Shown in pieces: positions 577 to 25,332 of a stretch of 64,000 nt of DNA. Source of the stretch: Pedobacter agri PB92 (GTDB lineage: Bacteria; Bacteroidota; Bacteroidia; Sphingobacteriales; Sphingobacteriaceae); assembly GCF_000258495.1 (NCBI RefSeq), contig NZ_AJLG01000004.1:1-64000 (forward strand), written 5' to 3'. Every line of letters starts with the position of its first letter. Position 1 is the first letter of the stretch. The notes beneath the pieces were generated by a model. That model had not been told where the DNA came from. It searched no databases and saw only the letters and a list, made by a program, of their open reading frames with translations. Made by a program: the position numbers and the translations under genes.

Positions 577-621
577 CGAAGGTATGAGTAATCAAAAAAA
601 CATTTTTACGGGTTTCCGTAA
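577..621 (-). promoter_or_regulatory. Palindromic operator plus -7 element of the lipoprotein gene
   Basis: Read on the minus strand, TTACGGAAACCCGTAA (606-621) is followed after 21 bp by TACCTTCG (577-584). The latter is one base away from the Bacteroidota -7 consensus TAnnTTTG. The same palindrome-to-promoter spacing occurs at five other promoters in this window. A palindrome centred near -43 suggests an activator site; that role is inferred. Confidence 0.75.
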
Positions 622-805
622 GTGGTAGAACATCTAAAATAAAAACCTAATTAAGGCATTTCTATGCGCTATAATAAAGCTTCTATCTAGGTAGCTATTA
701 AACGTTCAATAGAGGAGCAACCAGATGCTCTGTATGACAAAATAGTATTATCAAAAAAGTCTATGAAACTTGCTAGTTGACAATTAAATCAACTTTAATA
801 TTGAT

Positions 806-1921
806 TCATTGAGCCAATCTATGCTTGACATGTTTTTTTCTGAGCAACTTTTTTATCAGGAAAAATACAATCAGTAAAATTATAACCAGCGATATACCCC
901 ATCCCACAATTTGCAAGACAAAACGGTGGTAAGATAGGTGGTTACTAATAATATAATTAGAAAGCGGTTTTAGTTTCTTTTTGCTATCCACAGGATGCAC
1001 TCCGCTATCGGTAAAAAATTCATATTCTCCATTCCTTTTCGCATACCAAACTTTTCCAACCGCATTTTTGCTTAGCGTATCGGACCACCCAATTTTTTTA
1101 AAATTTTTATAAAGGCTTTTTTGCAAAGGAATTATGCCAGTTTGGGTATTACTCTTTTCACATTCCACCGAAACATATTTATCACCATCCCAGTACATGC
1201 ACTTCTCAGTCGGAAGCGTATCACTTTCAAACCATCCGCTCTGTTGAAGAATGATAGCAATACTGAAAATTAAAAATCCAGCAATACTGTATACTGCAAA
1301 TTTCCTATAGGAATTTCTTTTTTCTTCAAATGACTGCGTTTCCTCAACATCTTCCTCTTGAGTTTCATCCTGAGAAGTAGTCAGGTTCTCATTGTCATTA
1401 TCTTCAGTTGGTTCGGGATGCTGAAGAAGCTTCTCAAGGTCATCATAGTGACAATCTTCATCCGCTTCCGCTATCTCACCTTTTCCCTCTTCCATATCAA
1501 AATTTTCATTGGTATCTGAAGAATTTTCATCCTCAGAAGTTCCTAAATACGAATTCAAGCCAGCACCATATTTTTTCACCTTCCAATCTTGATAGGAATG
1601 AAATTCTATTAGCCAGGCTAAAAGTTTTACAGGCTCTTCGTCTCTAATGACCGTCCCTTTTGTTAGAAAGTTAACCAACGGTCTGAATTTATCAAGCTCA
1701 AATCGGTCAATGCTTTTAAACAGATCTTCATATTTTCCCAAAGGATCGAAAAAATCCTTAATTATATCTCTGTCCTCCTTGCTATTTTTTATTGCATAAA
1801 TCCTTATGCATTCCTTTCTCAGTTTAAGCCTTTCCGGATTCTCCATAGCGGTGGAAAGTTGATTGGATTTCTTTTTTAAAAAGTAAAATTCCAGTAATTC
1901 TCTTTTATAATCTTCGAACAT
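806..1921 (-). CDS. Two-helix membrane protein with long acidic linker, unknown function
   Basis: The protein has about 371 residues and I do not recognise its family. Residues 1 to about 120 are soluble, charged and probably helical. Residues about 125-200 form a very acidic, low-complexity linker rich in Glu and Asp. Two hydrophobic helices follow at about 213-231 and 342-362, with a segment of about 110 residues between them that probably faces the periplasm. The tail is very basic. The longer frame would begin with TTG at 1930; the ATG at 1921 fits the predicted promoter better, leaving a leader of about 10 nt or more. It is a regulon member with its own operator. Acidic linkers of this kind usually tether or space domains, but no function is shown by sequence. 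Confidence 0.75.
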   Translation of the reverse strand: MFEDYKRELLEFYFLKKKSNQLSTAMENPERLKLRKECIRIYAIKNSKEDRDIIKDFFDPLGKYEDLFKSIDRFELDKFRPLVNFLTKGTVIRDEEPVKLLAWLIEFHSYQDWKVKKYGAGLNSYLGTSEDENSSDTNENFDMEEGKGEIAEADEDCHYDDLEKLLQHPEPTEDNDNENLTTSQDETQEEDVEETQSFEEKRNSYRKFAVYSIAGFLIFSIAIILQQSGWFESDTLPTEKCMYWDGDKYVSVECEKSNTQTGIIPLQKSLYKNFKKIGWSDTLSKNAVGKVWYAKRNGEYEFFTDSGVHPVDSKKKLKPLSNYIISNHLSYHRFVLQIVGWGISLVIILLIVFFLIKKLLRKKHVKHRLAQ

Positions 1922-1938
1922 CAGCGTCAATATTTCCC

Positions 1939-1982
1939 CAAAAATAAGAGGGAATTTCCGGAATTTTTACGGTTTCCCGGAA
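1939..1982 (-). promoter_or_regulatory. Palindromic operator plus -7 element of the acidic membrane protein gene
   Basis: On the minus strand TTCCGGGAAACCGTAA (1967-1982) matches TTACGG-N4-CCGTAA with one mismatch. It is followed after 20 bp by TATTTTTG (1939-1946), a full match to TAnnTTTG. The ATG of the gene lies 18 bp further on. Confidence 0.75.
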
Positions 1983-2292
1983 TTAGCAAGGAATTAGGGG
2001 AATAAAAGGAATGAATGGAATTATCTGTAAGACAAGCTCTTGACTCCTACTATGTTTGCATCGTTGAATCGGCAGACAGTTATTCATATAAACGATTGAG
2101 TGCTTCTTGCAAGTTTAAACAATAAGACAATGCCGCGGGACTGATAACCGGTTTGGGAAGCAGTTCTCTGTTTCCGCGATTGCGTCTTAATACTTCCCAA
2201 AAAATTCAGAAGGCCTTCTGACAAAAAATGTAGCAATCCCCCTGTATGGTCAGAGGGACCTACCAAGGTATGTCTTTTAATTTTTTGAAATT
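1983..2292. other. Intergenic stretch without a recognisable gene
   Basis: About 310 bp between divergent genes. Apart from the operator at its left edge I see no coding signal, RNA gene or long repeat. A short frame on the minus strand here shows no protein-like composition and was not annotated. Confidence 0.5.
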
Positions 2293-2493
2293 ATGTTTAT
2301 TCCATTGTTTATTGCAATTTTATTAGGTCTGGTAAGTCCATCAGATAACAACAACTGTTCAAACAGTAGCGGCACAGTAGTAACCACCCAGAATGCCAAC
2401 GGCGATGACGGTGATGATGGAACGGATACTGGTGAAACGGGAGGCGGGCCGGTGAGCGGCGAGAACGGAACTATAAAGCCACCAAAACCATAA
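2293..2493 (+). CDS. Small exported or membrane-anchored peptide, unknown function
   Basis: The frame encodes 66 residues from ATG to TAA. The first 14 residues are strongly hydrophobic, like a signal peptide or anchor. The rest is low-complexity: Asn/Ser, then Gly/Asp/Thr, ending in a basic IKPPKP tail. The base composition rises in GC over the Gly/Asp part. A hairpin terminator sits 18 bp after the stop, which supports a real transcript. No operator palindrome is present upstream. I do not recognise a family, and the coding status is plausible rather than certain. Confidence 0.5.
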   Translation: MFIPLFIAILLGLVSPSDNNNCSNSSGTVVTTQNANGDDGDDGTDTGETGGGPVSGENGTIKPPKP

Positions 2494-2510
2494 TAATTTT
2501 GTTTATTGAC

Positions 2511-2540
2511 AGAGGGCGGCCCAGGCGGCCCTCTTTTCTT
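2511..2540 (+). terminator. Intrinsic terminator of the small peptide gene
   Basis: A GC-rich hairpin, arms AGAGGGC and GCCCTCT (2511-2534), is followed by TTTCTT. It separates the small peptide from the kinase gene. Confidence 0.75.
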
Positions 2541-2615
2541 CAAAAGGTTATGCCTTCGAAGACCAACAATTCAATTCCTAAAAATTTTTCTTAATTTGGC
2601 GTAAATCCCTAAATT

Positions 2616-3932
2616 TTGAAACTCTCCGTTTTTGCAATTATCCTACTGGCTTTATTTTCTGCTTGTTCAGATAATAAAGCAGTAAAAAAGTCTACAGAAC
2701 CCAATACCTTTTATTATCAGGCCTATCATTACGATGATCATGGACTACAAGACAGTGCTTTTTTATTTTTCAGTAAGGCTAAAGATGTATTTTCCCAACG
2801 AGGGGATAGCTTGGGAATCGGCAAATGCCTTCTTAATATGGCTATAATCTCAAATTCCAGGGGTGATTACTTTGGAGCTCAAGAACTTTCACTCAGTGCG
2901 ATCCCCTTTTTTAGACCACATAATTTAAAGGAACACCCTTACCTTCAATCCAACTATAACAACCTTGGGATGGTTTCCTACAATTTGCTTGATTTCCGGC
3001 AAGCAATTACTTTTTATAATATAGCAAAAAAATACACCCTGGATGCAGCCGGATTATTGATTTTAAACAACAATATTGCGAACGCCTACAGGCGTTTAGG
3101 TGAATTTGACAAAGCGATTAAAATATATTCTATTATACTTAGCCAAAAACTCTCTGAAAAGGAATGGTCAAGAACACTTTCAAACTTCGCCTATACCAAA
3201 TGGCAGCAGAACCGTAAATATGATGCCTCGAATGAGCTTTTTCGCGCATTAAAAGTCAGAAAGCATATAGCTGATTTGCAGGGACAGATTTCCAGTTATA
3301 CGTTCCTGACCGACTTTTATAGCTTAACTCAGCCCGGCTTAGCCAAATACTACGCAAAGGAAATGTACAATGTCGCAGAAAAAATAAATAACCCAAATGA
3401 TAAGCTCGAAGCTCTTCAGAGGTTGGTCAGACTAAGTGCCGAAAACCAAAGCAAGCAATATTTTAATGTCCATCAGATTTTAAATGATAGTTTGCAGACA
3501 GCCCGGAACGCAGCAAAAAATCAATTTGCGCTGATACGTTACGAAAGTGAGAAAAGTAAGGCAGATAATTTAAGGCTTCAGCAAGAAAACACAGAGAAAA
3601 CCTATCAGGTTAATAAGCAGAAGACTGTTACCTATCTTCTATCATTCCTATTTGTACTATTTACACTTATTGGTTTATACCTAAGTAAAAAACGAAAAGA
3701 AAGGCTGGAACTCACCGCGCAGAATCGAATAAAAGAGGGTCAGCTTAAAACATCAAAAAAAGTTCATGATGTAGTAGCTAATGGCTTGTATAGGGTAATG
3801 ACGGAGATCGAAAATCAAAGTGGTATTGGAAAGGAAGAAATACTCGATAGACTTGACGGGATGTATCAGAAATCTAGAGATATATCATATGAAGTTGAGC
3901 TTCCGCAAGCCCAAGATTATCATAAAAAATAA
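2616..3932 (+). CDS. TPR-containing sensor histidine kinase, sensor and phosphoacceptor half
   Basis: The 438 residues begin with a lipoprotein-like signal (LFSAC, Cys17). Residues about 30-300 are helical TPR-type repeats, then come a coiled coil (about 300-330), one membrane helix (337-357) and a HisKA_3-like helix with KKVHDVV, where His384 is the likely phosphorylated residue. This is the layout of Bacteroidota TPR kinases. The frame stops at TAA 3930-3932 before the ATPase domain, which continues in the -1 frame (3926-4303). The only usable start is TTG at 2616, because a stop codon (TAA, 2610-2612) lies just upstream. The gene is cotranscribed with the response regulator at 4307. The stop falls directly after an A6 run, so a one-base homopolymer error or real indel is the simplest explanation. 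Confidence 0.8.
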   Translation: MKLSVFAIILLALFSACSDNKAVKKSTEPNTFYYQAYHYDDHGLQDSAFLFFSKAKDVFSQRGDSLGIGKCLLNMAIISNSRGDYFGAQELSLSAIPFFRPHNLKEHPYLQSNYNNLGMVSYNLLDFRQAITFYNIAKKYTLDAAGLLILNNNIANAYRRLGEFDKAIKIYSIILSQKLSEKEWSRTLSNFAYTKWQQNRKYDASNELFRALKVRKHIADLQGQISSYTFLTDFYSLTQPGLAKYYAKEMYNVAEKINNPNDKLEALQRLVRLSAENQSKQYFNVHQILNDSLQTARNAAKNQFALIRYESEKSKADNLRLQQENTEKTYQVNKQKTVTYLLSFLFVLFTLIGLYLSKKRKERLELTAQNRIKEGQLKTSKKVHDVVANGLYRVMTEIENQSGIGKEEILDRLDGMYQKSRDISYEVELPQAQDYHKK

Positions 3933-4303
3933 ATAGCCTTTTAAAGATATTTGAATCTGAACGCGTCCACATCACAATTGAGGGGAACACGCAGAATCTT
4001 TGGGAAGGGATATCTGCCTCTGTGGAACATGAGCTCGAGCATATTCTTCAGGAATTTATGGTTAATATGGATAAACATAGTCAGGCATCCCATGTATCAG
4101 TTCGCTTCAGCAGGCAAGGTGATAGATTAGCTATATCTTATCATGATGATGGAATCGGCGTATCGGATAAAATAAATTATGGCAACGGACTTAAGAATAC
4201 GGGAAACCGTATAAAAAATATACAAGGTGAAATTATCTTTGGAACTAAATCTGAAAAAGGACTGGAAATCAATTTTTCCTTTCCCGTTTCTCAACAACCT
4301 TAA
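3926..4303 (+). CDS. Histidine kinase ATPase domain, out-of-frame continuation
   Basis: In the -1 frame relative to the upstream kinase half, the reading continues without stops from 3926 to 4303. It encodes a HATPase_c domain: an N-box-like stretch with QEFMVNMDKHSQ, a G1 box DDGIGV and a G2-like GNGLKNTG. Adding one A to the A6 run at 3924-3929 joins both halves into one protein of about 560 residues, the usual kinase size. As the sequence stands, this part could only be made alone from the GTG at 4022 or by a ribosomal slip. It ends 3 bp before the response regulator start. Confidence 0.75.
   Translation, partial: KINSLLKIFESERVHITIEGNTQNLWEGISASVEHELEHILQEFMVNMDKHSQASHVSVRFSRQGDRLAISYHDDGIGVSDKINYGNGLKNTGNRIKNIQGEIIFGTKSEKGLEINFSFPVSQQP
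4197..4241 (+). promoter_or_regulatory. Operator and promoter inside the kinase gene, driving the response regulator
   Basis: ATACGGGAAACCGTAT (4197-4212) is a symmetric match to the regulon palindrome. Exactly 21 bp later comes TATCTTTG (4234-4241), a full match to TAnnTTTG. The response regulator ATG is at 4307. The palindrome codes for part of the conserved GNRIKN region, so selection on protein could contribute, but the spacing match is unlikely to be chance. Confidence 0.7.
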
Positions 4304-4306
4304 ACA

Positions 4307-4975
4307 ATGTTCAAAAAAGTATTAATAGCCGAGGATCACGAAAGCGCCAGCATTTCCGTTCAAAAGACATTAACAGATTTAAATATTTTTCATGATAACC
4401 GGAACTATGTGTTTTATTGTGATGATGCACTCAGCCGGATTCAAAAGGCGATAAGCGAAGGAGAGCCCTATGAACTTTTGATTACTGATTTATCTTTCGA
4501 TGAGGATTCGCCGCAAGTTGTTAAAAGCGGATCAGAACTTATTAAAGCCGCCAGAAACATACAACCTGATCTTAAAGTTTTGGTTTTTTCGATCGAAAAT
4601 CGCGTTTCTGTTGCTGCAGGATTAATGAGTGAGCTGGATATAGACGCTTTTGTTCCCAAAGCAAGAAACGATGCAAAAGACTTAAAGGCTGCAATTGAAA
4701 AGATGGCTGCCGACAGAAAATATCTATCGCCAAACTTAAAAAAAACCTTCTCTCCAGAGCCCGCATTTACATTCACCGATTATGACAAAACTATTATTTC
4801 TATGCTTGCAAATGGAAAACCCCAGAAAGATATTCCATTTTACCTCCAGAGAAACAGTATCAAGCCCTCTAGTTTAAGTAGCGTGGAAAAGAGATTCAAC
4901 ACAATCAAAACAATACTCGATATTTCTAGCAATGAGCAATTGATCGCATATTGTAAAGACAGGAAAATCATATAA
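4307..4975 (+). CDS. NarL/LuxR-type response regulator
   Basis: The protein has 222 residues. An N-terminal receiver domain shows the acidic pair Glu9-Asp10, the phosphoacceptor Asp61 in LITDL, the switch Ser95 and the conserved Lys118. Residues about 150-215 form a LuxR-type helix-turn-helix. It follows the kinase by 3 bp and is its natural partner. A regulon-type promoter inside the kinase suggests that it activates its own transcription, and it is the best candidate for the protein that binds TTACGG-N4-CCGTAA at six promoters; both points are inferences. The HTH is more divergent than in typical NarL proteins. Confidence 0.88.
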   Translation: MFKKVLIAEDHESASISVQKTLTDLNIFHDNRNYVFYCDDALSRIQKAISEGEPYELLITDLSFDEDSPQVVKSGSELIKAARNIQPDLKVLVFSIENRVSVAAGLMSELDIDAFVPKARNDAKDLKAAIEKMAADRKYLSPNLKKTFSPEPAFTFTDYDKTIISMLANGKPQKDIPFYLQRNSIKPSSLSSVEKRFNTIKTILDISSNEQLIAYCKDRKII

Positions 4976-5182
4976 CGCTGCCATCGTTCGGCTAGATTAA
5001 ATTTATCATTAAATTGCATTACTTTAATTGAGAGCTAATTGCTTAAGGTAGATTAGCATTTATACTGGCGGTCAAATTTCAAGTACCCAATCTTATATTT
5101 CTTCTGTTTTCTTAATAACGGTTTTAATTACCTATTAGCCTTTTCGTGATGTGATTAAAATAATTGCACATCGCATTTCCTT

Positions 5183-5227
5183 TTACGGAAACCCGTAAGC
5201 TATTCATTTTTCACTCCTATAAATTTG
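5183..5227 (+). promoter_or_regulatory. Palindromic operator plus -7 element of the KTSC operon
   Basis: TTACGGAAACCCGTAA (5183-5198), then 21 bp, then TAAATTTG (5220-5227), a full match to TAnnTTTG. The first ATG of the operon is 20 bp downstream. Confidence 0.8.
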
Positions 5228-5247
5228 GAGCTTAAACAAATATTAAG

Positions 5248-5475
5248 ATGGAAAGATATTTAAATCACAGCGGCAGTTCAGGAGTAGCTGCTTACCAGAT
5301 TGGCGAAGACTATATCTGGGTTCAATTTACCTCAGGAAGTATTTATGAATATACCTATTCAAGTGCCGGAACAAGAAATATCGAAGAGATGAAATCTCTG
5401 GCAAATTCAGGGAGCGGGCTTAATAGTTTCATTATGAAAAACGTGAGGAATAAATATTCTAGAAAAATACAATAA
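5248..5475 (+). CDS. KTSC domain protein
   Basis: This 75-residue protein is essentially one KTSC domain, named for its likeness to the C-terminus of lysyl-tRNA synthetases. Visible features are the strands YIWVQFTSGSIYEYTY, a helix with MKSLANSGSGLNSFI, and a basic end. KTSC proteins are short and their role is not known; nucleic-acid binding is often supposed. The gene opens a three-gene operon and its stop lies 2 bp before the next ATG. Its promoter carries the regulon palindrome. Confidence 0.85.
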   Translation: MERYLNHSGSSGVAAYQIGEDYIWVQFTSGSIYEYTYSSAGTRNIEEMKSLANSGSGLNSFIMKNVRNKYSRKIQ

Positions 5476-5477
5476 AT

Positions 5478-5714
5478 ATGGAATATAAAGTCATTCCCTT
5501 TACTGCAACCCTGGACCAAAAGAAACAAACAGCAGTTGCGGTCGCAGAACAACTAGAGGAGGTCATAAATTACTACAAGTCTCAGGGCTGGATATATATT
5601 AGGTTGGAAAGCGTGTCTACGTATGTTCAGCCAGACAATGGGTGCTTCGGAATAGGCGCAAAGCCTGGTTATCTTGCACCCTACCAGATGGTAGTTTTTG
5701 GTAAAACGGAGTAA
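5478..5714 (+). CDS. Small DUF4177-like protein
   Basis: 78 residues starting MEYKVIPF, with a helix over VAEQLEEVINYYKSQGW and a C-terminal strand ending in YQMVVFGK. This is the pattern of DUF4177-type proteins, which combine an N-terminal EYKV strand with a GW-containing turn; the assignment is from memory and tentative. The stop codon overlaps the next start (TAATG), so translation is probably coupled. It is the second gene of the KTSC operon. Confidence 0.7.
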   Translation: MEYKVIPFTATLDQKKQTAVAVAEQLEEVINYYKSQGWIYIRLESVSTYVQPDNGCFGIGAKPGYLAPYQMVVFGKTE

Positions 5715-5995
5715 TGAAGTATATTTTGTTATTTGCAATCAGATTTTACTGGATTTTGAAATCTAATAAACAGCCTGCCCGTTGTCTTTTCAGAATAAGT
5801 TGTTCCCGTTACGTCTATCAGATAACTACAGAAGATGGATTTTTTAAAGGTGTTCATGCATTGTTCAAACGTTTCAGAAATTGCAGGCATGGCTATCAGC
5901 TGATGATAAATCCCTTGAATGGGCAAAAGACTATGGTTTTGCCTGATGGCACAAACATTAGACAAAATGAAATTGCAGAAAAATTCCTCAACTGA
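5714..5995 (+). CDS. YidD-like membrane protein insertion factor family protein
   Basis: 93 residues. After a hydrophobic, aromatic N-terminal helix comes CLFRISCSRYVYQ, then GFFKGVHALFKRFRNCRHGY. These match the YidD signature, in which a Cys-rich SCS motif is followed by a Gly-helix and an R-C-x motif. Canonical YidD helps YidC insert inner-membrane proteins and lies next to rnpA and yidC. This copy instead ends a regulated operon with a KTSC protein and is diverged, so its job may be different. The start overlaps the previous stop by one base. Confidence 0.7.
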   Translation: MKYILLFAIRFYWILKSNKQPARCLFRISCSRYVYQITTEDGFFKGVHALFKRFRNCRHGYQLMINPLNGQKTMVLPDGTNIRQNEIAEKFLN

Positions 5996-6237
5996 AATGC
6001 TCCAAATAATCCCTATCGATCTATAAAGTGTTAACAATCTAATACCCTCTACGACGGCGCTTAATCATAACAAATATTCGCTCTCAGAAAATCGGGAGAT
6101 TGCTTTGACTGATTAGTCATATGATATGCAATTTCCCATTTTCATTTTAGGCATGATATCGTATACCGTATTAGACCCTACATAATATGAGCTAGATTTT
6201 TTAAACTTCAGATTGACAGCCGGATAAAAGAACTGCT
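5996..6237. other. Intergenic stretch before the PLD operon
   Basis: About 240 bp with no coding signal that I can support. The operator and promoter of the next operon begin at its right edge. Confidence 0.4.
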
Positions 6238-6282
6238 TTACGGTTTCCCGTAATAATGCGTGCCAGCTGAATTATATTTTTG
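6238..6282 (+). promoter_or_regulatory. Palindromic operator plus -7 element of the PLD/VWA operon
   Basis: TTACGGTTTCCCGTAA (6238-6253), then 21 bp, then TATTTTTG (6275-6282), a full TAnnTTTG match. The -7 element covers the in-frame TTG at 6280, so the coding sequence must begin at the ATG at 6301. Confidence 0.8.
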
Positions 6283-6300: not shown

Positions 6301-8301
6301 ATGATAACATCTCAACACTCTTTAGAACAGGAAGTTCTTCAGGATAATAAAGAAATTTTTGCCCGGCTTGTTAAGGAGTTGGAAGGTGCAGATTTCGAAC
6401 TGCTAATCGCTACGGCATGGTTTACCGATGAGGAACTTTTCGATATTGTCAAAAGTAAAGCTGCTCAGCGCGTCAGCGTTAAGCTAATAATTGCAGATAA
6501 CCAGGAGAATCGTAAACTTCCTTTTGATGAATTGGTAGCACTTGGTGCATCAGTTACCAAAATTAAAGGTGCGGGCTATGGGAACATGAATCAAAAGTTT
6601 TGTGTAATTGACAAACGTATTGCCATGCATGGCTCGTATAACTGGTCCGTAAATGCAAGAAAAAATAATCATGAAAGTATTATCGTCACCAACCATAACG
6701 AAACTGTAGCAAGTTTGATTGACACTTTCAATGATATTGAAAACAAAATCACAAGTCAAGGCGAACAGCCAATAGAAGATAATATTCAAACGGATAAATC
6801 TGAAGTTTTAAAACTAGAAAAGCATACTGCGAAAGAGTATGCAGTTTCAGAATTCACCAAAGTGCTTGATTCAATGATTGCTGCAGAAATAGGGAATTTC
6901 GACCGTTCCATGCTCAGCAAACAGGGTTATGAAAGATCTAAATTCAATAACGGCGACCACCAGGTGCTGACTAAGGCACTTGATACAGTTTATTCGGTGT
7001 TTATCAATGATATTGACGTAGTCGAAGATAAAAAAAGAAGACTCCTTACAAAAATTGATGAGCAGGAAATAAAAAGCATCAATGCATTTCAGGAAAGCCT
7101 TGCACTGCAATTACAGAGTGCGGAAGTGGAATCTGAAAACGAAATATTGAATGCAAAAAATAAACTGATTAACCTAAAGTCAGATGTTGAGAAAAACTCG
7201 CAAATCATTGATGGGATAAAAAATACAAAAATCGAATTCCATCAAAATATTATTGGTGAAATTAAAGAGAAAATTCGTCATGCCAAAAGGGAGTTCATCA
7301 GTCCCAAATTTAAATGGTATGAATTTATTCCTGTACTCACCGCAAATATTTGTCTGATAATCTACCTGTTTATCTTTTATTCTTCGGCGTGTTACATTTT
7401 GTTGTTTGCCGTTGAGGATTCAAAAATTGCCATGCAGAGCGGACTCGAAAGCATACCCATGGAAATCTTCAATCCAAAAGCGATTAATCTGACGATCGAA
7501 AAAGGAGGCTCAGGGATTCTTTTTATCTTTCTCTTTGTAAGCATTCCGATATTCTGTGCGCTAATAAAACTTTTCACTAAAAATAACTGGATAGTTATTC
7601 CAATGTTTCTAGTTGGGATTCTGCTCATTGATACTGCAATTGCTTATAAAGTTTCTTCGGCAATCCATCAGATGAAATTCGACTCTGGGGACTCGAATGA
7701 GGCTTGGAGAGTGCAGATGGCTTTTAGCGACCCTAATTTCTATCTGGTGTTTTTATTGGGTGGCTTTGGCCTTCTGATGCTGAAGTTTGCTTTTGATAAA
7801 TTGATGTCAATTTTCGATGAGCGCAATCCTGACATCGCCTCACTAAGGAGCAATGTTCTTGTTGACCAGATGGGTGAAGATATCGGTCTTGAAGAAGCAA
7901 AAATTGTGTTGCTCAAAGAAGAAATTCAATCTATTGAATCTGTAAATATCGGATTAGATGCCCAATGTAAGATTACGGAGGTCTACCTTTCGACCCTTCC
8001 TAATAAGTTGAATCTGATTAAGGAACTTAAGAAAACGGATTTGATTACCGGTAAACAGCATATTAGTGATATTGCCACGATATATAAAAGCCATGTTCAA
8101 AATGATAACATTCCTATTTCAATTGATTCGTTGCGAGATAGGATAAATATTTTCCTGGAGGGCTGGAATGATTTTCTTCATGAACGATATTCTATCCCGC
8201 TTGCGATGGAAAAATCGCGCGAAGCCTTCGACACCGCCGTTAGCTGGCAAACCGAAAAAATGAAAAATTCATATATAGATAAGCGCGTTCAAATATCATG
8301 A
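6301..8301 (+). CDS. PLD-like domain fused to coiled coil and membrane domain
   Basis: 666 residues. Residues about 10-160 form a single phospholipase D-like domain. The HKD motif is read as N97-Q-K99 with Asp104, followed by GSYNWS. The catalytic His of HxKxxxxD is therefore Asn, so classical phosphodiesterase activity is doubtful. A long helical region (about 170-335) follows, then four hydrophobic segments (about 339-367, 404-424, 429-450, 480-500) and another coiled-coil tail. The gene overlaps the next one by 4 bp (ATGA), so the two products probably work together. PLD-like domains act in nucleases, lipases and effectors; which applies here is not visible. The start is set by the promoter. 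Confidence 0.8.
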   Translation: MITSQHSLEQEVLQDNKEIFARLVKELEGADFELLIATAWFTDEELFDIVKSKAAQRVSVKLIIADNQENRKLPFDELVALGASVTKIKGAGYGNMNQKFCVIDKRIAMHGSYNWSVNARKNNHESIIVTNHNETVASLIDTFNDIENKITSQGEQPIEDNIQTDKSEVLKLEKHTAKEYAVSEFTKVLDSMIAAEIGNFDRSMLSKQGYERSKFNNGDHQVLTKALDTVYSVFINDIDVVEDKKRRLLTKIDEQEIKSINAFQESLALQLQSAEVESENEILNAKNKLINLKSDVEKNSQIIDGIKNTKIEFHQNIIGEIKEKIRHAKREFISPKFKWYEFIPVLTANICLIIYLFIFYSSACYILLFAVEDSKIAMQSGLESIPMEIFNPKAINLTIEKGGSGILFIFLFVSIPIFCALIKLFTKNNWIVIPMFLVGILLIDTAIAYKVSSAIHQMKFDSGDSNEAWRVQMAFSDPNFYLVFLLGGFGLLMLKFAFDKLMSIFDERNPDIASLRSNVLVDQMGEDIGLEEAKIVLLKEEIQSIESVNIGLDAQCKITEVYLSTLPNKLNLIKELKKTDLITGKQHISDIATIYKSHVQNDNIPISIDSLRDRINIFLEGWNDFLHERYSIPLAMEKSREAFDTAVSWQTEKMKNSYIDKRVQIS

Positions 8302-9224
8302 AACAATATATCCTTATTAGCCTGATGTTGCTCACATCCGCATCACTTTCTGCCCAGAAAAAAGAAATTGTCAACTATAATATAATATTTTCTCCCGATC
8401 TGTCTAACAGGCTGAATACAACTTTATATCCTAAAGTGGTTAATGATGCAGATATAGTGGAAGGTGTGCTCAAAAATATTTATCCAATACTCCGGATTAA
8501 ACGTTCGCAAGATCAACTTGACCGTTACAGCGTTGATTTTGTAAACAAAGGATTAATCAGTATGTACAAGGTTAATACCGATATGCTTAATATCGATTTT
8601 CAACGTTTCGAAAGGCAAAGTGACAGAATTGCATATGTGATGGCCCGAAAAGTTCCCCGAACACTTACCGGAGATGTTTCCGGCTTTATGTCGGAATATA
8701 GAAAGTTTAGCGAAAAAGCATCCAAATCAAACAATGGTGCAGATATATGGAGCTACTTTCAGTCAGGCATTGATAACCGGATTGTTTTGCCAAGTTTGGT
8801 AAATGCTAAAGTAACTCAAAAATTTAGAAATATCATGGTGCTGCTCACCGACGGGTACATCGAAGCTGGTATTTACAATAAAGGTTATGATTTGAGTGCC
8901 AAAAAAGTTGCTGATTTCAGGAAGTCATTTTTGAAGTCAAAATCAGAAAGTATGGAGTCATTTCTTTCTAAAAATAAGGTGTTCAGAATTAATCCGGTAA
9001 AAAATGCTGAGTTGAAAAATCTGGAGGTGATCGTTTTAGAAATGTACGACCGATCCCTTTCCAAAACTGGCGCAGCAACCGCACATCCTACTGATATGGA
9101 AATCATGAAAGTAATTTGGACAGATTGGATGAGAGCTTCTGGTGTAAAAAGATTTGAACTCAGGCAGACAGCTAGTAATAGCGCAGAAGCAGTGAAGTAT
9201 GTAATGGATTTTATCAGAAACTAG
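8298..9224 (+). CDS. Exported VWA-like protein
   Basis: 308 residues with a clear signal peptide (cleavage after SLSAQ, about residue 20) and no further membrane helix. The strand NIIFSPDLSNRLN holds a MIDAS-like D-x-S (Asp34, Ser36), with Arg where the second Ser usually sits. A second core strand IMVLLTDG fits a von Willebrand A fold near residue 184. The assignment is therefore VWA-like with a degenerate metal site. It overlaps the PLD-like gene by 4 bp, which suggests a two-protein system with a membrane part and a periplasmic part. The exact role is unknown. Confidence 0.65.
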   Translation: MKQYILISLMLLTSASLSAQKKEIVNYNIIFSPDLSNRLNTTLYPKVVNDADIVEGVLKNIYPILRIKRSQDQLDRYSVDFVNKGLISMYKVNTDMLNIDFQRFERQSDRIAYVMARKVPRTLTGDVSGFMSEYRKFSEKASKSNNGADIWSYFQSGIDNRIVLPSLVNAKVTQKFRNIMVLLTDGYIEAGIYNKGYDLSAKKVADFRKSFLKSKSESMESFLSKNKVFRINPVKNAELKNLEVIVLEMYDRSLSKTGAATAHPTDMEIMKVIWTDWMRASGVKRFELRQTASNSAEAVKYVMDFIRN

Positions 9225-17811: not shown

Positions 17812-18692
17812 GAAGTCCGTTAGTTGGTTGGGAAAAAGGCTTAGAAAAAACCAAGGCAGGTTATCATTAAAGAACCTATTTCTATTTAACCATTCAGGTT
17901 ACCTGCCTTTGGTTTTGATAGATTATACGGGGTTCTTAGGCTTTAAAGCATAAAGCCTATCGAAAGGATAGTGGTTGCTCAGGCTCATTTGTAATTTACA
18001 TTTATAGGATTTAAAAAATTAGGCAAAAACCAGCCCTTCCGCATAAAAACATGCGGGTACGGGAAATCGTATTGCTTATTAAAAAAAGATGCCTACCTTG
18101 GGAATGCGAATAACTATAGTAATGCACCCTTGCCTAACAGCAATAAAGGGCTGGCACCAAGGTAAATTAACCCGCCAGGAATCAGTGCGCTCTCTCACAC
18201 CAACCCCTACTTTTTAATGGGCTATTTTATACCTGGAATTCCGGCACGCGCATTACGATGGAGAACAGATAACGTTCTTTAACAAGAGTTTAAGGGAAAA
18301 CTTGAGTATCACTTCCTGGAAGTGGTACGATTTGATGGCGCTTAATTTTTTCGTTTTCATAAACGGTTAATTTTATGTAAAACGATGCAGGCTCAATAAA
18401 AGCAAATGGGAAACCATATTGGAAAGAAACCAATAGGGCGAACTCCAAGGCTTTTGAGTGAGGTACCGTCAAGAACCGCTTAAGCCAAGGCTTAAGTTCC
18501 ACAAAAGACTAACATGAAGTCCGCCCTATTGAATATAAGATATCGCGAAGATAGCAAAACTCAATAGATCGGCGAACTCACGGTCGGCTCATGTGGAAGT
18601 TTGACGGTTTTCACTCATGAGTAACATCGTTAAAGCCAGGTTATACCCCAACTCTATTTGTCGCTGTAATAACTGATAACAAATATAATAAA
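17812..18692. other. Non-coding gap rich in inverted repeats
   Basis: About 880 bp without a supported gene. It contains several pairings: AAAACCAAGGCAGGT (17847-17861) with its near-complement at 17901-17916; a hairpin at 17938-17958; CCAGCCCTT (about 18030) against AAGGGCTGG (about 18148); the palindrome CACTTCCTGGAAGTG (about 18310-18324); CTTAAGCC-AA-GGCTTAAG (18478-18495); and CAATAGGGCG (about 18430) against CGCCCTATTG (about 18521). The density is unusual and suggests a structured RNA or remains of a mobile element. Confidence 0.5.
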
Positions 18693-20345: not shown

Positions 20346-20570
20346 ATGAATGCGATATTCCACGCAGAAGAAACCCAAGGTGGCTACAACTGGACCATTA
20401 CCTCCAAACTAGGCCATATCCTGTATACGGCAGAACAAAAATATGGGCTAAGAGATAAAGAATATAGTAAACTCAAAAATTTAGTTGCCAAAAACAGAAA
20501 AACAGGAGTTAAATTGTATGAGGTCCAAAAGTCCAACCTCTTGCTAAAGCTATTTTTTTCAATTGTTTAG
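20346..20570 (+). CDS. Possible small protein, unknown function
   Basis: 74 residues starting MNAIFHAEETQGGYNW, with a charged central helix (KEYSKLKNLVAKNRKTGVKLY). The first 55 residues look protein-like. The last part overlaps the convergent gene by about 60 bp and turns hydrophobic, so the original end may be lost. Unknown family. Confidence 0.4.
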   Translation: MNAIFHAEETQGGYNWTITSKLGHILYTAEQKYGLRDKEYSKLKNLVAKNRKTGVKLYEVQKSNLLLKLFFSIV

Positions 20571-20916
20571 CTTTTTTCTCCATAGAAGAGGTGGTTTCTT
20601 TACTCATATTTATACTAGCATGCCCAATAAATGGAATGTTATCTTCAATTACATCTAGCGAAATAGCACTACATTCATCCTCACTCACTGAAACAGTCCC
20701 TGATGTTTCGAAACCAATGCTTCTAAAGTGATGAAATGAGGCTTCTGGTGTGAACTCATCATTATTATAAACAGATAGCAAACCTTCATCTGTTTTTTTA
20801 GGCTTAAATACTTGACTAGTGATTTCACCAATGGGTTGAAACGCTTGTACAGAAATTATCTTGTTTGTTACAAAATTTGGATTTACCTGCCTATGGAAAA
20901 GTTTATCTTTTGACAT
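20509..20916 (-). CDS. Small partner protein of an unknown two-gene module
   Basis: 135 residues. Its start overlaps the stop of the 373-residue gene upstream by one base (TAATG), so the two are translationally coupled. The order of motifs HRQVNPNFV, TSQVFKPKKTDEGLLSVY, PEASFHHF and GHASINMSKE resembles a family of short hypothetical proteins that I remember from proteobacteria with the same larger partner. Their function is unknown to me. Placement in a defence island and coupling to a larger partner would fit a toxin-antitoxin or defence pair, but this is only an inference. Confidence 0.7.
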   Translation of the reverse strand: MSKDKLFHRQVNPNFVTNKIISVQAFQPIGEITSQVFKPKKTDEGLLSVYNNDEFTPEASFHHFRSIGFETSGTVSVSEDECSAISLDVIEDNIPFIGHASINMSKETTSSMEKKAKQLKKIALARGWTFGPHTI

Positions 20917-22037
20917 TAAAGAGCTTCATTTACTAAAAGATTCATTGATTTCCATCCTACTTTCGTAGAAAGATCAAAGTTTTTTATCGTTTCTTTTTCA
21001 TTCTCAAAATTTAATGCATGTAACCTTGACTTAAAATTCATTAAATCTATCACAGCATCAATTTCGTATTCACTAGAAGACCATTCAAATTGTATATTAC
21101 CATCTGGTCGAGGAAATATGGCTGGCTTAATGAAAGTTTTTGGAACAAACCTATCATAGAATGTGAGCAACTTGAGCAAGCCCTTTTTATTTGGCGCTTT
21201 ACCCTCACCATCTAACCAACCATCTTTTATTAGCATCAATTCATCAATTCTTGAATGCACATCGTAGGGATCAATCAGTGTTGCCTCATCAACTCGGTCA
21301 ATTACCTGTAAACGTCCAGTTGAATCAAATTTCCCTGTACCTTTAATTAGAACTTTGGTTACAAGCTCAACATCAGCTAAACTTTTGACTAATAATTGGA
21401 TATCTATGAGTGCTAATGAAGCACTTACTAGTAAGCCAGATTCACTAATTGTAAATGTTTGATTTTTTTTATCAATAGAAGTAACATCAGCATAAATTTC
21501 AAATTTATCTATCGTCAACCCAACATATGGCCTATTTAAAACCTTTGCTCTAATGTCGTCAGTAAGCTTGCCATATTTTTTCCGACCAGTCCTATTTAAA
21601 AACATGGTTTCATTAGGTCTTAAATGGCGACCAATCCTAATAAAGTAGTTAGCATACTTCGGCTTGGATAATATTGAATTGTTATCCTCAATATCAATAT
21701 TCTCTAAATCTTTTATCAGAAGATTTTTTGCTTTTTCAAGGTATGAGTAGGTATCATTACTTAAATCCAGTGCTTCGATTTCAGAAGTGTCCAAGTCCAA
21801 CTCCATAATAGAGCTACCTTTTTTTATATCTAATAGCCTCAAGCTTATTCCATCTAGAAAGTGATTAGGTAGTCTACTTCGTGTGGGATGCTCTTTTTTA
21901 TAAATATCCTTAGCCAATTCAAAGATTAAATCCTGAATTACTGATAATTCCTGAAGAAATTCTACGGGTACAGATTTTGTTTTAAACCTATCACCTTCTA
22001 GTGTTGGTGTAAGAAATTTTTTCTGATTATTCTTCAA
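20916..22037 (-). CDS. Large protein of an unknown two-gene module
   Basis: 373 residues, soluble, no signal or membrane helix. The start codon is TTG at 22037; no ATG lies in frame nearby. I see a helical N-terminal third, a beta-rich middle (GLTIDKFEIYADVTSIDKK, then LIKGTGKFDSTGRLQVI) and a C-terminal part with DGWLDGEGKAPNKKG and FPRPDGNIQFEWSS. No known catalytic motif stands out. It is coupled to the gene at 20509-20916. A palindrome, TTTAGAA-ATA-TTCTAAA, lies 29 bp upstream (22066-22082) and may be its operator. Confidence 0.75.
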   Translation of the reverse strand: MKNNQKKFLTPTLEGDRFKTKSVPVEFLQELSVIQDLIFELAKDIYKKEHPTRSRLPNHFLDGISLRLLDIKKGSSIMELDLDTSEIEALDLSNDTYSYLEKAKNLLIKDLENIDIEDNNSILSKPKYANYFIRIGRHLRPNETMFLNRTGRKKYGKLTDDIRAKVLNRPYVGLTIDKFEIYADVTSIDKKNQTFTISESGLLVSASLALIDIQLLVKSLADVELVTKVLIKGTGKFDSTGRLQVIDRVDEATLIDPYDVHSRIDELMLIKDGWLDGEGKAPNKKGLLKLLTFYDRFVPKTFIKPAIFPRPDGNIQFEWSSSEYEIDAVIDLMNFKSRLHALNFENEKETIKNFDLSTKVGWKSMNLLVNEAL

Positions 22038-22413: not shown

Positions 22414-22458
22414 TTATGGAAAACCGTAAATTAATTGATCTGGGTTAGATTAGCTTTG
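22414..22458 (+). promoter_or_regulatory. Sixth regulon operator plus -7 element, far from the others
   Basis: TTATGGAAAACCGTAA (22414-22429) matches TTACGG-N4-CCGTAA with one mismatch. After exactly 21 bp comes TAGCTTTG (22451-22458), a full TAnnTTTG match. A 43-codon gene starts 50 bp downstream. Confidence 0.75.
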
Positions 22459-22507: not shown

Positions 22508-22639
22508 ATGGAAGCAATCAAACCTGGGCCTAAGCCCAAAACAGAGGAGGGAAATGACGATAAGAGAAGGAGAGTTCTGCCGGAGACCAAACCGAAACAT
22601 CCTGATCTGAAGCCGCACATCCACAAACCAAAGGATTAA
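22508..22639 (+). CDS. 43-residue Lys/Pro-rich peptide under the regulon promoter
   Basis: The frame ATG 22508 to TAA 22637-22639 encodes 43 residues with 10 Lys and 8 Pro, no hydrophobic stretch, and the repeated theme KPKxxxPxLKPHIHKPKD at its end. The composition is unlike chance translation. A regulon-type operator with a perfect -7 element lies 50 bp upstream, and this is the main support that it is a gene. An inverted repeat (TGAGG/CCTCA, about 22650-22670) follows. The function is unknown; a basic peptide of this type may bind nucleic acid or act as a small effector. Confidence 0.6.
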   Translation: MEAIKPGPKPKTEEGNDDKRRRVLPETKPKHPDLKPHIHKPKD

Positions 22640-23059: not shown

Positions 23060-24073
23060 ATGAAATATTATCCTGTTTTGCTTTCGAAGGCTGGCGAATT
23101 AATTGCCTTGGAAAAACTTGCACAGAATGTTAAAAATAGTTCTGCACCTATTATACAAGTTGTTGAAGATAACTTTATTTCTGTATCAGATCATCTAAAA
23201 AACAATTGGTCATTCACAAATAACGAAGTACTGGTAGATTTTTCTTTGATCGATAGTTTGCCAGGTAAAATGGCAGATGTAACACTATTAATAACGGACT
23301 CGGTTGCAAATGGAATTAATATTATTCCTGTTATTGATTCTAGCTCGCCAATTGCATATATTAATGCAATTAGTTCTTTAGTAAATCAGTTTAATCTTAA
23401 AGTATGTTTAAGAGAAATTTACCCATCTAATTTGATTTCGCTTAATTCGCAAATTGCGAGTATTTTAAATACTTTCTCTATATCCGAATCACAAATAATT
23501 CTATTGCTAGATCTTGGTTATGTACAAGCGAGTAATTTCTCTATGAAAGTTAATAACATCGCTGCGCTGATAGGCGGCTTAACAAATGTTTCAAATTTCG
23601 ATGCGATAGTCGTTGCGAGCGGATCTTTCCCCGAAAATTTATCACCTTTTACTGCAAATCATCTTCATATAATAAGACGTTATGAAAACGATATCTGGGA
23701 ATATTTAACAACGCAGAATCTCCCACAAAATTTAAGATATGGCGATTACGGCACGAAATATCCAACTTATACGAATGTGAGTTTTACTGGAACATGCAGT
23801 ATAAAATATACGACACCTAAAACCTTTGCTATTTATAGAGGTGAACTCTCACAAAATCATCCACTTGGAAATGCTCAGTATATACAGTTTGCGAAGCAAT
23901 TAGTTTTGGCATCTCACTATTCTGGCCCATCCTTTAGTTGGGGAGATCAAAAAATTGAGATAATTTCTCTTCAGTCACTATCACCTCCACCTCGTTTGAA
24001 ACCAGGTAATGCTAAGACATGGGTTGAGATAAGCCAGAATCATCACATAACATTATTAGAAAGTATTTTGTAG
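23060..24073 (+). CDS. sce7725 / T4 beta-protein family protein
   Basis: 337 residues, soluble. The start MKYYPVLLSKAGELIALEKL, the repeated hydrophobic strands of a barrel-like fold, the segment IRRYENDIWEYL and the late motif KFAIYRGELSQNHPLG-like (CSIKYTTPKTFAIYRG) fit the beta-protein family, whose members near defence genes are named sce7725. It is followed 86 bp later by an sce7726 family gene, the pairing that gives these families their names. The pair is inferred to be a defence module because of its neighbours. Biochemistry is not known to me. Confidence 0.75.
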   Translation: MKYYPVLLSKAGELIALEKLAQNVKNSSAPIIQVVEDNFISVSDHLKNNWSFTNNEVLVDFSLIDSLPGKMADVTLLITDSVANGINIIPVIDSSSPIAYINAISSLVNQFNLKVCLREIYPSNLISLNSQIASILNTFSISESQIILLLDLGYVQASNFSMKVNNIAALIGGLTNVSNFDAIVVASGSFPENLSPFTANHLHIIRRYENDIWEYLTTQNLPQNLRYGDYGTKYPTYTNVSFTGTCSIKYTTPKTFAIYRGELSQNHPLGNAQYIQFAKQLVLASHYSGPSFSWGDQKIEIISLQSLSPPPRLKPGNAKTWVEISQNHHITLLESIL

Positions 24074-24159
24074 TTTGATGCTTAGGGGAACGTAGTTTAT
24101 TAGCAATAGATTCTATGTTTTTAATAAAAATGAGCTAAGTTTGAAGAAAAAGTTGATTT

Positions 24160-24714
24160 ATGACTGATGTTGATATCAGAATCATTCTGAAAAATACTTT
24201 GTTGAAAAATTATTACGAATGTTCGAATAGTAGGGTTGTTGAAGAGCTTGAACTTCCTATTGCAAAAGCGAGAATAGATATGGCAGTGATCAATGGTTAT
24301 ATGCATGGCTTTGAAATAAAAAGCGCAAGTGATACATTAAAAAGAATTCCATCTCAAGTGGAAGCATATACTAAAGTATTTGACTACCTATCAATCGTTA
24401 CGGAAGAAAAATATCGGAATAAATTACTTATGATGACGCCAAAGTGGGTAGGAATAATTATTTGTAATAAAGATGGTGAAACAACCTTAATTAGAAAAGC
24501 ATTAATAAATAAAAAAAAGCAATCATTTTTTCTTGCAAAGCTTTTATGGAAAGATGAATTGCAACTACTTTTGGCTAACAGTGGGGTAAAATTTAATAAA
24601 TCAGATCGAAATTGGTTGTTATGTGAGGCCCTTGCCGAAAGATTTACCGTAAAAGAAATATCTGAATTAGTCCGAGAACAACTTCGACTAAGAGCAAACT
24701 GGAAAAGTTGTTAA
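24160..24714 (+). CDS. sce7726 family protein (nuclease-like fold likely)
   Basis: 184 residues. The N-terminal part holds RIDMAVINGYMHGFEIKSASDTLKR-type sequence, in which the D...E-x-K arrangement (IDMAV, then FEIKS) resembles the PD-(D/E)xK nuclease core. KRIPSQVEAYTKVFDYLSIV follows, as in proteins that load nuclease folds on DNA. The sce7726 name is from memory of the adjacent pair in Sorangium. The gene closely follows the beta-protein gene. Nuclease activity is an inference from the motif. Confidence 0.78.
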   Translation: MTDVDIRIILKNTLLKNYYECSNSRVVEELELPIAKARIDMAVINGYMHGFEIKSASDTLKRIPSQVEAYTKVFDYLSIVTEEKYRNKLLMMTPKWVGIIICNKDGETTLIRKALINKKKQSFFLAKLLWKDELQLLLANSGVKFNKSDRNWLLCEALAERFTVKEISELVREQLRLRANWKSC

Positions 24715-25120
24715 CTCGCCAGCTGGTCTAAGCCGCTTATATCGCATTTTTCGAGATTTCATAACTTGGCCTAACAGAGCCTGGTTTTGGATTAATTTAA
24801 ACTTGGATAGATTTTTTTTGAAAAGCTGAATCTAAAAAGCTGTTGGAAGGAGTTGTTGGTATTTGTTCAGAGGGTAAGTAACATATTGTATTTAATCGGC
24901 AATCCATTTGGCAGCCACTTTGCATTGAAATGGAGGGGATATTAGGTTCTTCCCCGCTTTTGGTGGTAAGTCACCAGAGAAAGGATTAAAAGATTTTGTA
25001 GATATAATAATTGTTCTTAGAATAGATATGGACACCCTAGTACAAAAATAAATTATGACGATATTTTAGGGATGATGATTACCCACTATGAAAAAAGTAC
25101 AAAGGAATTGGGTTTATAAG
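24715..25120. other. Intergenic stretch
   Basis: About 400 bp with no frame that I can support. It precedes the decayed XRE copy. Confidence 0.4.
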
Positions 25121-25291
25121 GAAGAAAACTTAAAAATAAGTCATTGGCTGAACACCTTAATAAAAAGAGAGGAAACGATTTCGCGATGATGCAAGAATAA
25201 GCAACAACCATCAATAGACGACTTTAATAAAATTGCAGAGTTCTTGAGGGTGGATATCAGAGAGTTGTTGAATCCGAGCGATTGGAGTAAA
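25121..25291 (+). pseudogene. Decayed second copy of the XRE regulator gene
   Basis: The DNA from 25121 to 25291 aligns over its whole length with 18780-18950 of the intact XRE gene, with roughly 85-90 percent identity by eye. It has an extra A in AATAAAAAGAGAGG and the Trp codon TGG of the recognition helix is TGA. The 5' part with start codon is missing. It is a dead copy left by duplication or recombination. Its last bases create TAAATTTG (25288-25295), a usable -7 element for the next gene. Confidence 0.85.
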
Positions 25292-25295
25292 TTTG
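25265..25295 (+). promoter_or_regulatory. Possible promoter of the AbiC-like gene within the dead XRE copy
   Basis: TTG (25268-25270), 17 bp, then TAAATTTG (25288-25295), a full match to TAnnTTTG. The AbiC-like ATG is 37 bp further on. The sequence at the same place in the intact XRE gene is AAAAAG and carries no -7 element. Confidence 0.45.
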
Positions 25296-25332
25296 AGGTC
25301 CTCGGTTACAAACAAAAGAAAGCAACTTAATT

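Follow-up and report, generated by a model that had tools for sequence, protein, structure and literature searches.

Two-component regulators that act on CRISPR-Cas genes have been described in other bacteria. PpoS/PpoR of Marinomonas mediterranea, a BarA/UvrY-like pair, controls the expression of two CRISPR-Cas systems as well as phage resistance (PMC8523701), and in group B Streptococcus the two-component regulator CovRS acts directly at the cas9 promoter, next to tracrRNA (PMC12216829). Here a window of 64,000 nt from Pedobacter agri PB92 (on contig C4 of an assembly of 379 contigs) was analyzed. It carries the genes of a sensor histidine kinase with tetratricopeptide repeats (TPR) and of a response regulator (RR), together with six sites of a 45-bp promoter cassette, TTACGG-N4-CCGTAA followed after 21 bp by TAnnTTTG. 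We put at roughly 0.7 the probability that this two-component system activates a regulon marked by the cassette and that the regulon has a strong immunity arm.

Given the two precedents, two-component control of CRISPR is not new in kind. PpoS/PpoR likewise consists of a histidine kinase and an RR that act on CRISPR-Cas. However it is tied to the BarA/UvrY-Csr cascade, and the abstract and outline of that report claim no shared cassette at many defence promoters (PMC8523701). CovR differs in being a repressor and a virulence regulator, and it binds over the start point and not between divergent cas9 and tracrRNA promoters (PMC12216829). In the open-access literature, with most subscription papers and bioRxiv outside the scope, no description was found of the motif, the regulon, the gene set, a cassette with many targets or a site shared by cas9 and tracrRNA. 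A sequence-only reading of the window knew of no described system with this set of genes. WYL-domain regulators such as SiwR are reportedly transcription factors tied to DNA-damage and phage-defence genes; SiwR is said to differ from the present system in being a ligand-sensing one-component regulator of adjacent genes.

The same reading had proposed that six sites in the window fit one palindrome and are followed at a fixed distance by a −7 element. All six are present at the positions claimed (Table 1). The −7 element lies on the strand of the gene it precedes in every case, the gap is 21 bp at five sites and 20 bp at the site at 1967, and TAnnTTTG is perfect at five, with one mismatch (TACCTTCG) at the site at 606. 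A joint search of the window, with GG-N4-CC fixed, a gap of 20-21 bp and at most 2 mismatches in the palindrome, 1 in the −7 element and 2 in total, returns exactly these six sites; 200 dinucleotide shuffles give 0.005 sites on average and never more than 1. The palindrome alone was rejected as evidence, since at ≤3 mismatches it shows no clear excess in the window (24 versus 18.4 expected; 24 was reached by 12 of 100 shuffles) and at ≤2 mismatches genome-wide it falls below a reversed control (190 per strand versus 298). Such counts would suit palindromes that arise by chance or belong to a mobile repeat, as would the near-identical cassettes that recur in genomes G085 and G066. However the exact spacing, the reversed-pattern control of the joint element (7 matches in all 301 genomes of the family and 3 in 296 of the phylum), the finding of 0 sites in 400 kb of control regions (20 regions taken at round coordinates in the same genomes) and, in the kinase gene, codons that change the amino acid yet keep the palindrome refute this explanation for the set as a whole, and its probability is practically nil.

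Two weak palindromes, at 18057-18072 of the window (3 mismatches) and at 4690 of locus L022 (2 mismatches), have a one-mismatch −7 element at gaps of 21 and 22 bp respectively. Their contexts are alike in sequence, and they may be chance occurrences or decayed sites.

The spacing was then compared among named RR loci, the best 80 of 349 named relatives. These loci (1.54 Mb) contain 187 core palindromes, with TAnnTTTG at a gap of 21 bp in 168 and of 20 bp in 3, and no other −7 offset between −60 and +79 exceeds 3. In Flavobacterium psychrophilum the −7 box TAnnTTTG of sigma-A promoters is placed at −12 to −5 (PMC9723704). Because of this placement, the palindrome of the cassette falls at −49 to −34, with its center at −41.5. 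The position −41.5 is the classical one of a class II activator. Two features of class II promoters are thus seen, a site centered near −41.5 at a fixed spacing to the −7 element (gap 21 in 168 of 187) and a weak or missing −33 element, as a logo of 156 unique sites has no TTG consensus near −33. The logo sites were selected for a palindrome with ≤1 mismatch, a perfect −7 element and a gap of 21 bp, and the positions that appear fixed in it are set by this selection; the palindrome center is TTTC in 71 of them. Among 221 unique exact-core sites, 30 have TTG anywhere in −35 to −28. Thus the cassette shares its −7 box with the sigma-A promoters of Bacteroidota as described in that report (PMC9723704) but lacks their −33 TTG consensus, and the palindrome ends at −34.

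At such a site the RR would very probably activate rather than repress. An RR that represses from the site and is relieved by phosphorylation would resemble CovR, which represses cas9 in group B Streptococcus, but the sequence protected by CovR spans the start point (PMC12216829). Here the center is at −41.5 with one fixed spacing, the palindrome stands upstream of a good −7 element and the −33 consensus is absent, all of which make repression very improbable.

Coding and noncoding DNA are hit unequally. Apart from the 76 exact sites within the kinase gene, 91 sites were counted in the named loci, and 3 of these fall in an open frame of at least 150 codons, versus 1323 of 1600 random positions. 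An earlier count on distant sites gave 6 of 61 in frames of more than 110 codons and is biased low, as the regions had been cut about 100 bp upstream of the sites. In f4, another family of the class, many of the sites (e.g., G551:C8:13762, G356:C1:3207820 and G328:C1:1887528) run on as CCGTAAGG(A/T)(A/T)TTG...AATGG before the −7 element, a shared stretch longer than that in Pedobacter.

The site at 4197 is not intergenic but inside the coding sequence of the kinase. In 76 of the 80 named loci a site with a perfect −7 element is found within 200 bp before the RR gene. Of the other four, L070 and L074 keep the palindrome but show one mismatch in the −7 element, L134 has the palindrome, and L131 has neither within this distance, its one-mismatch site being about 400 bp before the RR gene. 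In most loci the RR start is about 65-76 nt after the start of the −7 element. In the 74 kinases scored, the ATP-lid motif N-T-x-x-R is always encoded as AAT ACG Gnn nnC CGT. The Thr codon is ACG in 74 of 74 (13% elsewhere in these genes) and the Arg codon is CGT in 74 of 74 (16%). The two middle residues of the lid vary (GN, ET, GT, EN, VS, DS, GS and others) and the palindrome is kept. This count comprises 73 of the 80 named loci and the paralogous kinase on contig C92 of P. agri; left out were L060, L067, L069, L092 (S-T-x-x-R-I), L131 and L134 (which differ), and L073, where the kinase frame was not found near the contig end. These codon data rule out that the 4197 site arose by chance or from coding alone. 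Thus the fixed Thr and Arg codons, despite changing residues, indicate selection at the DNA level and point to an RR promoter within the kinase gene. If the RR activates, this arrangement would point to positive autoregulation. Such a promoter, set in the ATP-lid codons of the kinase that partners the regulator, would be a clear example of regulatory selection on a coding region.

Genomes were scanned with the exact cassette TACGGN4CCGTA-N21..23-TAnnTTTG, and RR orthologues were searched with a profile of 22 sequences (E ≤1e-40 in the 301 family genomes and E ≤1e-30 in the 296 phylum genomes). In the family, the cassette is present in 152 of 301 genomes and RR orthologues in 137. The two coincide: sites are found in 133 of 137 genomes that have the RR (RR+) and in 19 of 164 that lack it (RR−), with 4 RR+ genomes devoid of a site and 145 genomes devoid of both (Fisher p 4e-58). 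In the phylum sample 28 of 30 RR+ genomes have sites, the two without being G320 and G400, compared with 0 of 266 RR− genomes (Fisher p 3e-37). The 80 named loci are from Pedobacter, Parapedobacter, Sphingobacterium, Mucilaginibacter, Arcticibacter, Hufsiella and Chryseobacterium, and include metagenome-assembled genomes named Sphingobacteriaceae, Sphingobacteriales and Chitinophagaceae.

The sequence-only reading had proposed a local regulon in which one activator, with the RR as candidate, acts on a set of unusual genes. The activator is supported by the co-occurrence of site and RR. The local extent does not hold, as a second RR module is present on contig C92 and genomes from at least four families carry sites. 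In all likelihood the RR is the protein that binds the cassette. The 19 family genomes with sites but no RR would fit a different, unlinked regulator, the RR being merely co-inherited. That an RR had been overlooked was ruled out, since a recheck of these 19 genomes at E 1e-15 found none; we infer that such orphan sites would be accounted for if the RR had been lost or target genes had been transferred. The figures for the phylum (0 of 266 versus 28 of 30), the site before the RR in 76 of 80 loci and a Pfam scan of the other module proteins, in which no DNA-binding domain was seen, all speak against an unlinked regulator, which we hold to be very unlikely.

The RR has a receiver domain. Response_reg is matched by 22 of 22 RRs at E 0.01, although the RR of the window scores 22.1 bits, under the curated 30.2, and residues E9, D10, D61 and K118 are invariant in the alignment (n = 22), as expected of a receiver with its acidic pocket, phosphorylated Asp and Lys. 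The AlphaFold model (pLDDT 90, pTM 0.66) shows a four-helix helix-turn-helix (HTH) of the NarL/FixJ fold. In PDB it is matched best by full-length RcsB, at 18% identity and a TM of about 0.7 for the top entries; LiaR, VraR and NarL come lower among the first 50 matches. In the likely recognition helix the residues L190, S191, S192, E194 and K195 of LSSxEK are invariant in the 22 RRs, which accords with an invariant DNA site. The Rcs pathway affects CRISPR in Serratia, and the RcsB box probably differs from the site described here. The likeness to RcsB and to NarL/FixJ-type regulators is in the full-length fold only, and the system differs from the Rcs phosphorelay in that a TPR kinase stands in place of the Rcs partners, the phylum is another and Pfam gives no GerE match.

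The cassette is also found at cas9. Cas9 (RuvC_III) was detected in 12 of 80 RR+ and 13 of 80 RR− genomes searched; these subsets, as well as those used below for HsdR_N (50 RR+ and 70 RR−), were picked blind to outcome. A palindrome with ≤2 mismatches lies before cas9 in 9 of the 12 RR+ loci, versus 0 of the 13 RR− loci searched over 600 bp (Fisher p 1e-4). In eight of the nine it is 62-134 bp upstream of the cas9 ATG, and in G037 (L269) its distance to the first ATG of the long cas9 frame is 429 bp. In this last locus a second cas9-like start (ILGLDLG) was seen directly after the palindrome, upstream of the full-length frame. The −7 element that faces away from cas9 is perfect at a gap of 21 bp in 8 of the 9. 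The one facing cas9 is a weaker signal, with ≤1 mismatch at a gap of 20-22 bp in all nine and a gap of 21 bp in six.

The divergent transcript is tracrRNA-like (GAAAGCAAATCACAATAAGGATTATTCCGTTGTGAAAAC..., with a hairpin and a T run by eye). An array was located at seven loci (G028, G239, G217, G206, G185, G449 and G570; none was found in the G037 stretch, and G558 was not included), and at all 7 of them the transcript shares 13-17 nt with the complement of the CRISPR repeat of the locus. All 12 RR+ cas9 loci and 9 of the 13 RR− ones have the tracrRNA core. Thus the site, and not the tracrRNA, differs between RR+ and RR− genomes, since the core is common in both. Sites between cas9 and tracrRNA occur in six genera, an example being L105 of Parapedobacter luteus. 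One dimer bound midway could serve two class II promoters, those of cas9 and tracrRNA.

Sites distant from the RR were studied in 60 regions, on another contig than the RR or about 12 kb or more away; these were hand-picked among the matches listed and are not a random sample, and 8 are from RR− genomes (G015, G057, G087 and G186). The selection rule yielded 94 open reading frames (ORFs) from 48 regions and none from the other 12; ORFs of L138, L139, L144, L150 and L152 had been partly looked at before the selection. PADLOC matched 124 models in the 94 downstream ORFs, versus 7 in 94 length-matched random ORFs from control regions of the same genomes (mad2, PDC-M72A, ankyrin, 2TM effector and PycTM). 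The figure of 124 is not a gene count, as the models overlap, but defence models are clearly enriched behind distant sites. In single scans of 20 distant-site proteins, which included the hand-added CBASS cyclase of L144 (360 nt from the −7 element and outside the ORF rule), 11 matched, one of these weakly (SbcD-like, E 2.3e-7). The others are Cas6b, DUF1016/PDC-S02, the CBASS cyclase (E 1.9e-145), a ThsB-type TIR protein, LmuA (E 2.7e-103), LmuB, a helicase of the DrmD type (E 3e-203), a type I restriction enzyme, an RT-protease-XI-like stretch and a DpdB-like protein behind a D12-class methyltransferase. Thus defence against mobile DNA emerges as a theme that goes beyond the interpretation given in the sequence-only reading.

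Some distant regions show further repetition. Near-identical promoter cassettes are seen at several places in L139, L140, L142 and L144 (G085 and G066), and similar short ORFs follow the cassette in L140, L142 and L144 (MDFRDSALH, MMDFRDSVLQ and MIDFRDSVLQ); a copied promoter unit is possibly involved. L142 has an SbcD-like start by eye.

To define targets near the RR, ORFs with a start ≤700 nt downstream from a site were clustered, using L016, L017, L019 and the window in addition to the 80 named loci. The commonest, by number of loci, are HsdR_N-like proteins (37), DUF1508 (20), a 68-residue Cys protein (18), the acidic membrane protein (17) and DUF6232 (11). DUF4236, DUF4177-like proteins, YidD, a small secreted-looking Cys protein and a 126-residue protein occur in 8 loci each, and rarer are a 112-residue secreted-looking protein (7), KTSC-like proteins (4) and PLD (3). 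TerD (E 6e-67, once), Cas9 and Cas6 also stand behind sites. HsdR_N-like genes were found in 30 of the 50 RR+ and 9 of the 70 RR− genomes searched. Among the 30 RR+ loci, 25 have a site ≤650 nt upstream of the gene and on its strand, versus 0 of the 9 RR− loci, and any site within 1.5 kb is found in 26 of 30 versus 0 of 9; the RR− relatives are more divergent (37-47% identity, with one 73% fragment), a possible confounder of this comparison.

It should be noted that this list also agrees with a general response to envelope or competition stress, whose purpose would be the nucleases, YidD, TerD, DUF1508 and membrane proteins, with defence operons as occasional passengers that have captured the promoter. 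The commonest near-RR targets (HsdR_N-like, DUF1508, DUF6232, DUF4236 and small Cys or secreted proteins, with TerD once) mostly have no PADLOC match, and a kinase with a lipoprotein-like start and TPRs suits an envelope signal. However the sites at cas9 and tracrRNA track the presence of the RR and occur in six genera, and PADLOC defence models are far above matched random genes, so that a stress response of this kind appears rather unlikely. Defence against mobile DNA is probably a main purpose of the regulon.

The regulon with an immunity arm could then work as follows. In a membrane two-component system made of a lipoprotein-type TPR sensor kinase and an RR of RcsB/NarL-like fold, the phosphorylated RR dimer would bind TTACGG-N4-CCGTAA centered at −41.5 and recruit sigma-A RNA polymerase to TAnnTTTG promoters that have no consensus −33 box (class II activation). 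The RR would turn on its own gene via the promoter embedded in the kinase ATP-lid codons, the divergent membrane protein and a core of small and nuclease-like proteins. It would further turn on strain-specific immunity operons that carry the cassette, among them cas9 and tracrRNA from a shared site, Cas6, a CBASS cyclase, Lamassu, restriction enzymes and others. The lipoprotein-like N-terminus of the kinase, with its TPRs, suggests an envelope cue, and we infer that the signal may be an envelope or phage-attack cue.

Several observations weigh against this reading. PADLOC gives no match for 7 of 10 near-RR target proteins scanned, the commonest included, and the core targets are not known defence proteins. 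Immunity is thus one arm of the regulon and not proven to be the whole of it, and the near-RR targets without a match may be new defence factors or signs of a broader stress role. Nine of the 20 distant-site proteins scanned singly are without a PADLOC match. Two defence examples (L147 and L160) lie in RR− genomes, which hold ThsB (G087) and one HsdR_N-like gene (L147, G186), and orphan sites exist in the 19 RR− family genomes. Three of the 12 cas9 loci in RR+ genomes have no site, and the −7 element that faces cas9 is perfect in just 1 of 9. By Pfam, the GerE HTH is matched by 0 of 22 RRs at E 0.01, so that sequence models do not place the RR in NarL/FixJ. In addition, the p-values overstate independence because the genomes are related, and gene calls were simple ORF calls.

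Table 1. Cassette sites and associated genes in the 64-kb window (−7, the TAnnTTTG element; gaps are given in bp where noted).
Feature	Position	Strand	Sequence and remarks
Palindrome	606..621	(-)	TTACGGAAACCCGTAA; 0 palindrome mismatches; −7 TACCTTCG at 577-584, one mismatch, gap 21
Palindrome	1967..1982	(-)	TTCCGGGAAACCGTAA; 1 mismatch; −7 TATTTTTG at 1939-1946, gap 20
Palindrome	4197..4212	(+)	ATACGGGAAACCGTAT; 2 mismatches; −7 TATCTTTG at 4234-4241; in kinase ATP-lid codons; putative RR promoter
Palindrome	5183..5198	(+)	TTACGGAAACCCGTAA; 0 mismatches; −7 TAAATTTG at 5220-5227
Palindrome	6238..6253	(+)	TTACGGTTTCCCGTAA; 0 mismatches; −7 TATTTTTG at 6275-6282
Palindrome	22414..22429	(+)	TTATGGAAAACCGTAA; 1 mismatch; −7 TAGCTTTG at 22451-22458
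Lipoprotein-like protein, Cys-rich C-terminus, 190 aa	1..573	(-)	Target of site 606; no Pfam family over cut-off
Acidic membrane protein	806..1921	(-)	Divergent partner of kinase/RR genes; behind a site in 17 loci
Small peptide, 66 aa	2293..2493	(+)	Hydrophobic start (MFIPLFIAILLGL), Pro/Gly/Asp-rich tail; upstream of kinase
TPR sensor histidine kinase	2616..4303	(+)	One frameshift near 3914-3926; N-terminus lipoprotein-like
Response regulator (RR), 222 aa	4307..4975	(+)	Receiver and C-terminal helical DNA-binding-type domain
Putative operon: KTSC-like (5248-5475), DUF4177-like (5478-5714), YidD (5714-5995)	5248..5995	(+)	YidD E 1.9e-10
Putative operon: PLD-family protein (666 aa) and 308-aa protein of no assigned family	6301..9224	(+)	
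43-residue peptide	22508..22639	(+)	After site 22414; 81% identical to the first ORF behind a site in G206 (L166)
Beta protein/PD-Lambda-2_C (23060-24073) and cll-family protein (24160-24714)	23060..24714	(+)	Defence-type; downstream of site 22414

Two of the target labels in the sequence-only reading, KTSC and VWA, have no Pfam support (Table 1): the ORF at 5248-5475 has no Pfam match at E 0.1, and that at 8298-9224 has no Pfam match. A clear KTSC protein (Pfam E 4.5e-13) stands behind a site in another genome (L189). A relative of the DUF4177-like protein is matched by Pfam at only E 0.02. The PLD-family protein matches PLDc_2 (E 9.6e-17) and DrmC (E 5.9e-8) and has hydrophobic stretches by eye. 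Downstream of the site at 22414, the Beta protein gene, which starts about 600 nt from the −7 element, matches Beta_protein (E 1.1e-51) and PD-Lambda-2_C (E 4.9e-40), and the gene after it matches the cll family (E 2.6e-28). The segments 20512-22037 and 24160-32347 were seen to be rich in defence genes, with PDC-M32A/B candidates, the cll-family protein and a protein of 1540 residues that matches AbiLi in its C-terminal part.

The acidic membrane protein is laid out as a helical N-domain, an acidic linker, a hydrophobic helix, a CMYW...HPV domain and a further hydrophobic helix; its model has a mean pLDDT of 67, and no PDB fold match was found at E 0.001. By a strict pattern, an ORF like that of the small peptide stands before the kinase in 37 of 78 named loci, and one is also present on contig C92 (L016, 11802-11999). 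The small peptide is a candidate ligand or accessory of the sensor, and both it and the divergent membrane protein are candidates for accessory sensors. A leader common to both modules was seen by eye (window 2150-2240 and L016 11660-11790), with CTTCCCAAAAA and CAGAAGGCCTTCTGA before the small peptide; no Rfam family reaches its gathering score in window 1-24000, this part included.

The second, complete module on contig C92 comprises a divergent membrane protein, a small peptide, an intact kinase of 560 residues and an RR. It has three sites, each with a perfect −7 element at a gap of 21 bp. One is in the kinase (13629), the next (14552) precedes a secreted-looking protein of 119 residues, and the third (15100) is 344 nt upstream of a nuclease of the SNase family. 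Another site of the genome, C195:89, with one palindrome and one −7 mismatch, stands before the gene of a small Cys protein and one for type I restriction. In 78 of the 80 named loci the RR is preceded by an open frame of 547-651 codons. The RR of the window may rely on the C92 kinase, or the frameshift in its own kinase may be a matter of assembly.

When bacteria deploy costly immune systems is an open question, which the cassette makes directly testable. In several Bacteroidota families, one readable cassette flags the genes that a single regulator may target. A wider interpretation, which we regard as tentative and somewhat short of an even chance, is that a dedicated system in several families of the class senses envelope attack and switches on the immune repertoire as one programme, arming cas9 and tracrRNA from a shared site, and that acquired defence operons plug in by carrying or gaining the 45-bp cassette. 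The cassette is also a tool of discovery, in that uncharacterised genes headed by it become candidates for encoding new proteins of defence or stress. If the interpretation is true, the small core-regulon proteins that have no assigned function would be undescribed immunity factors.

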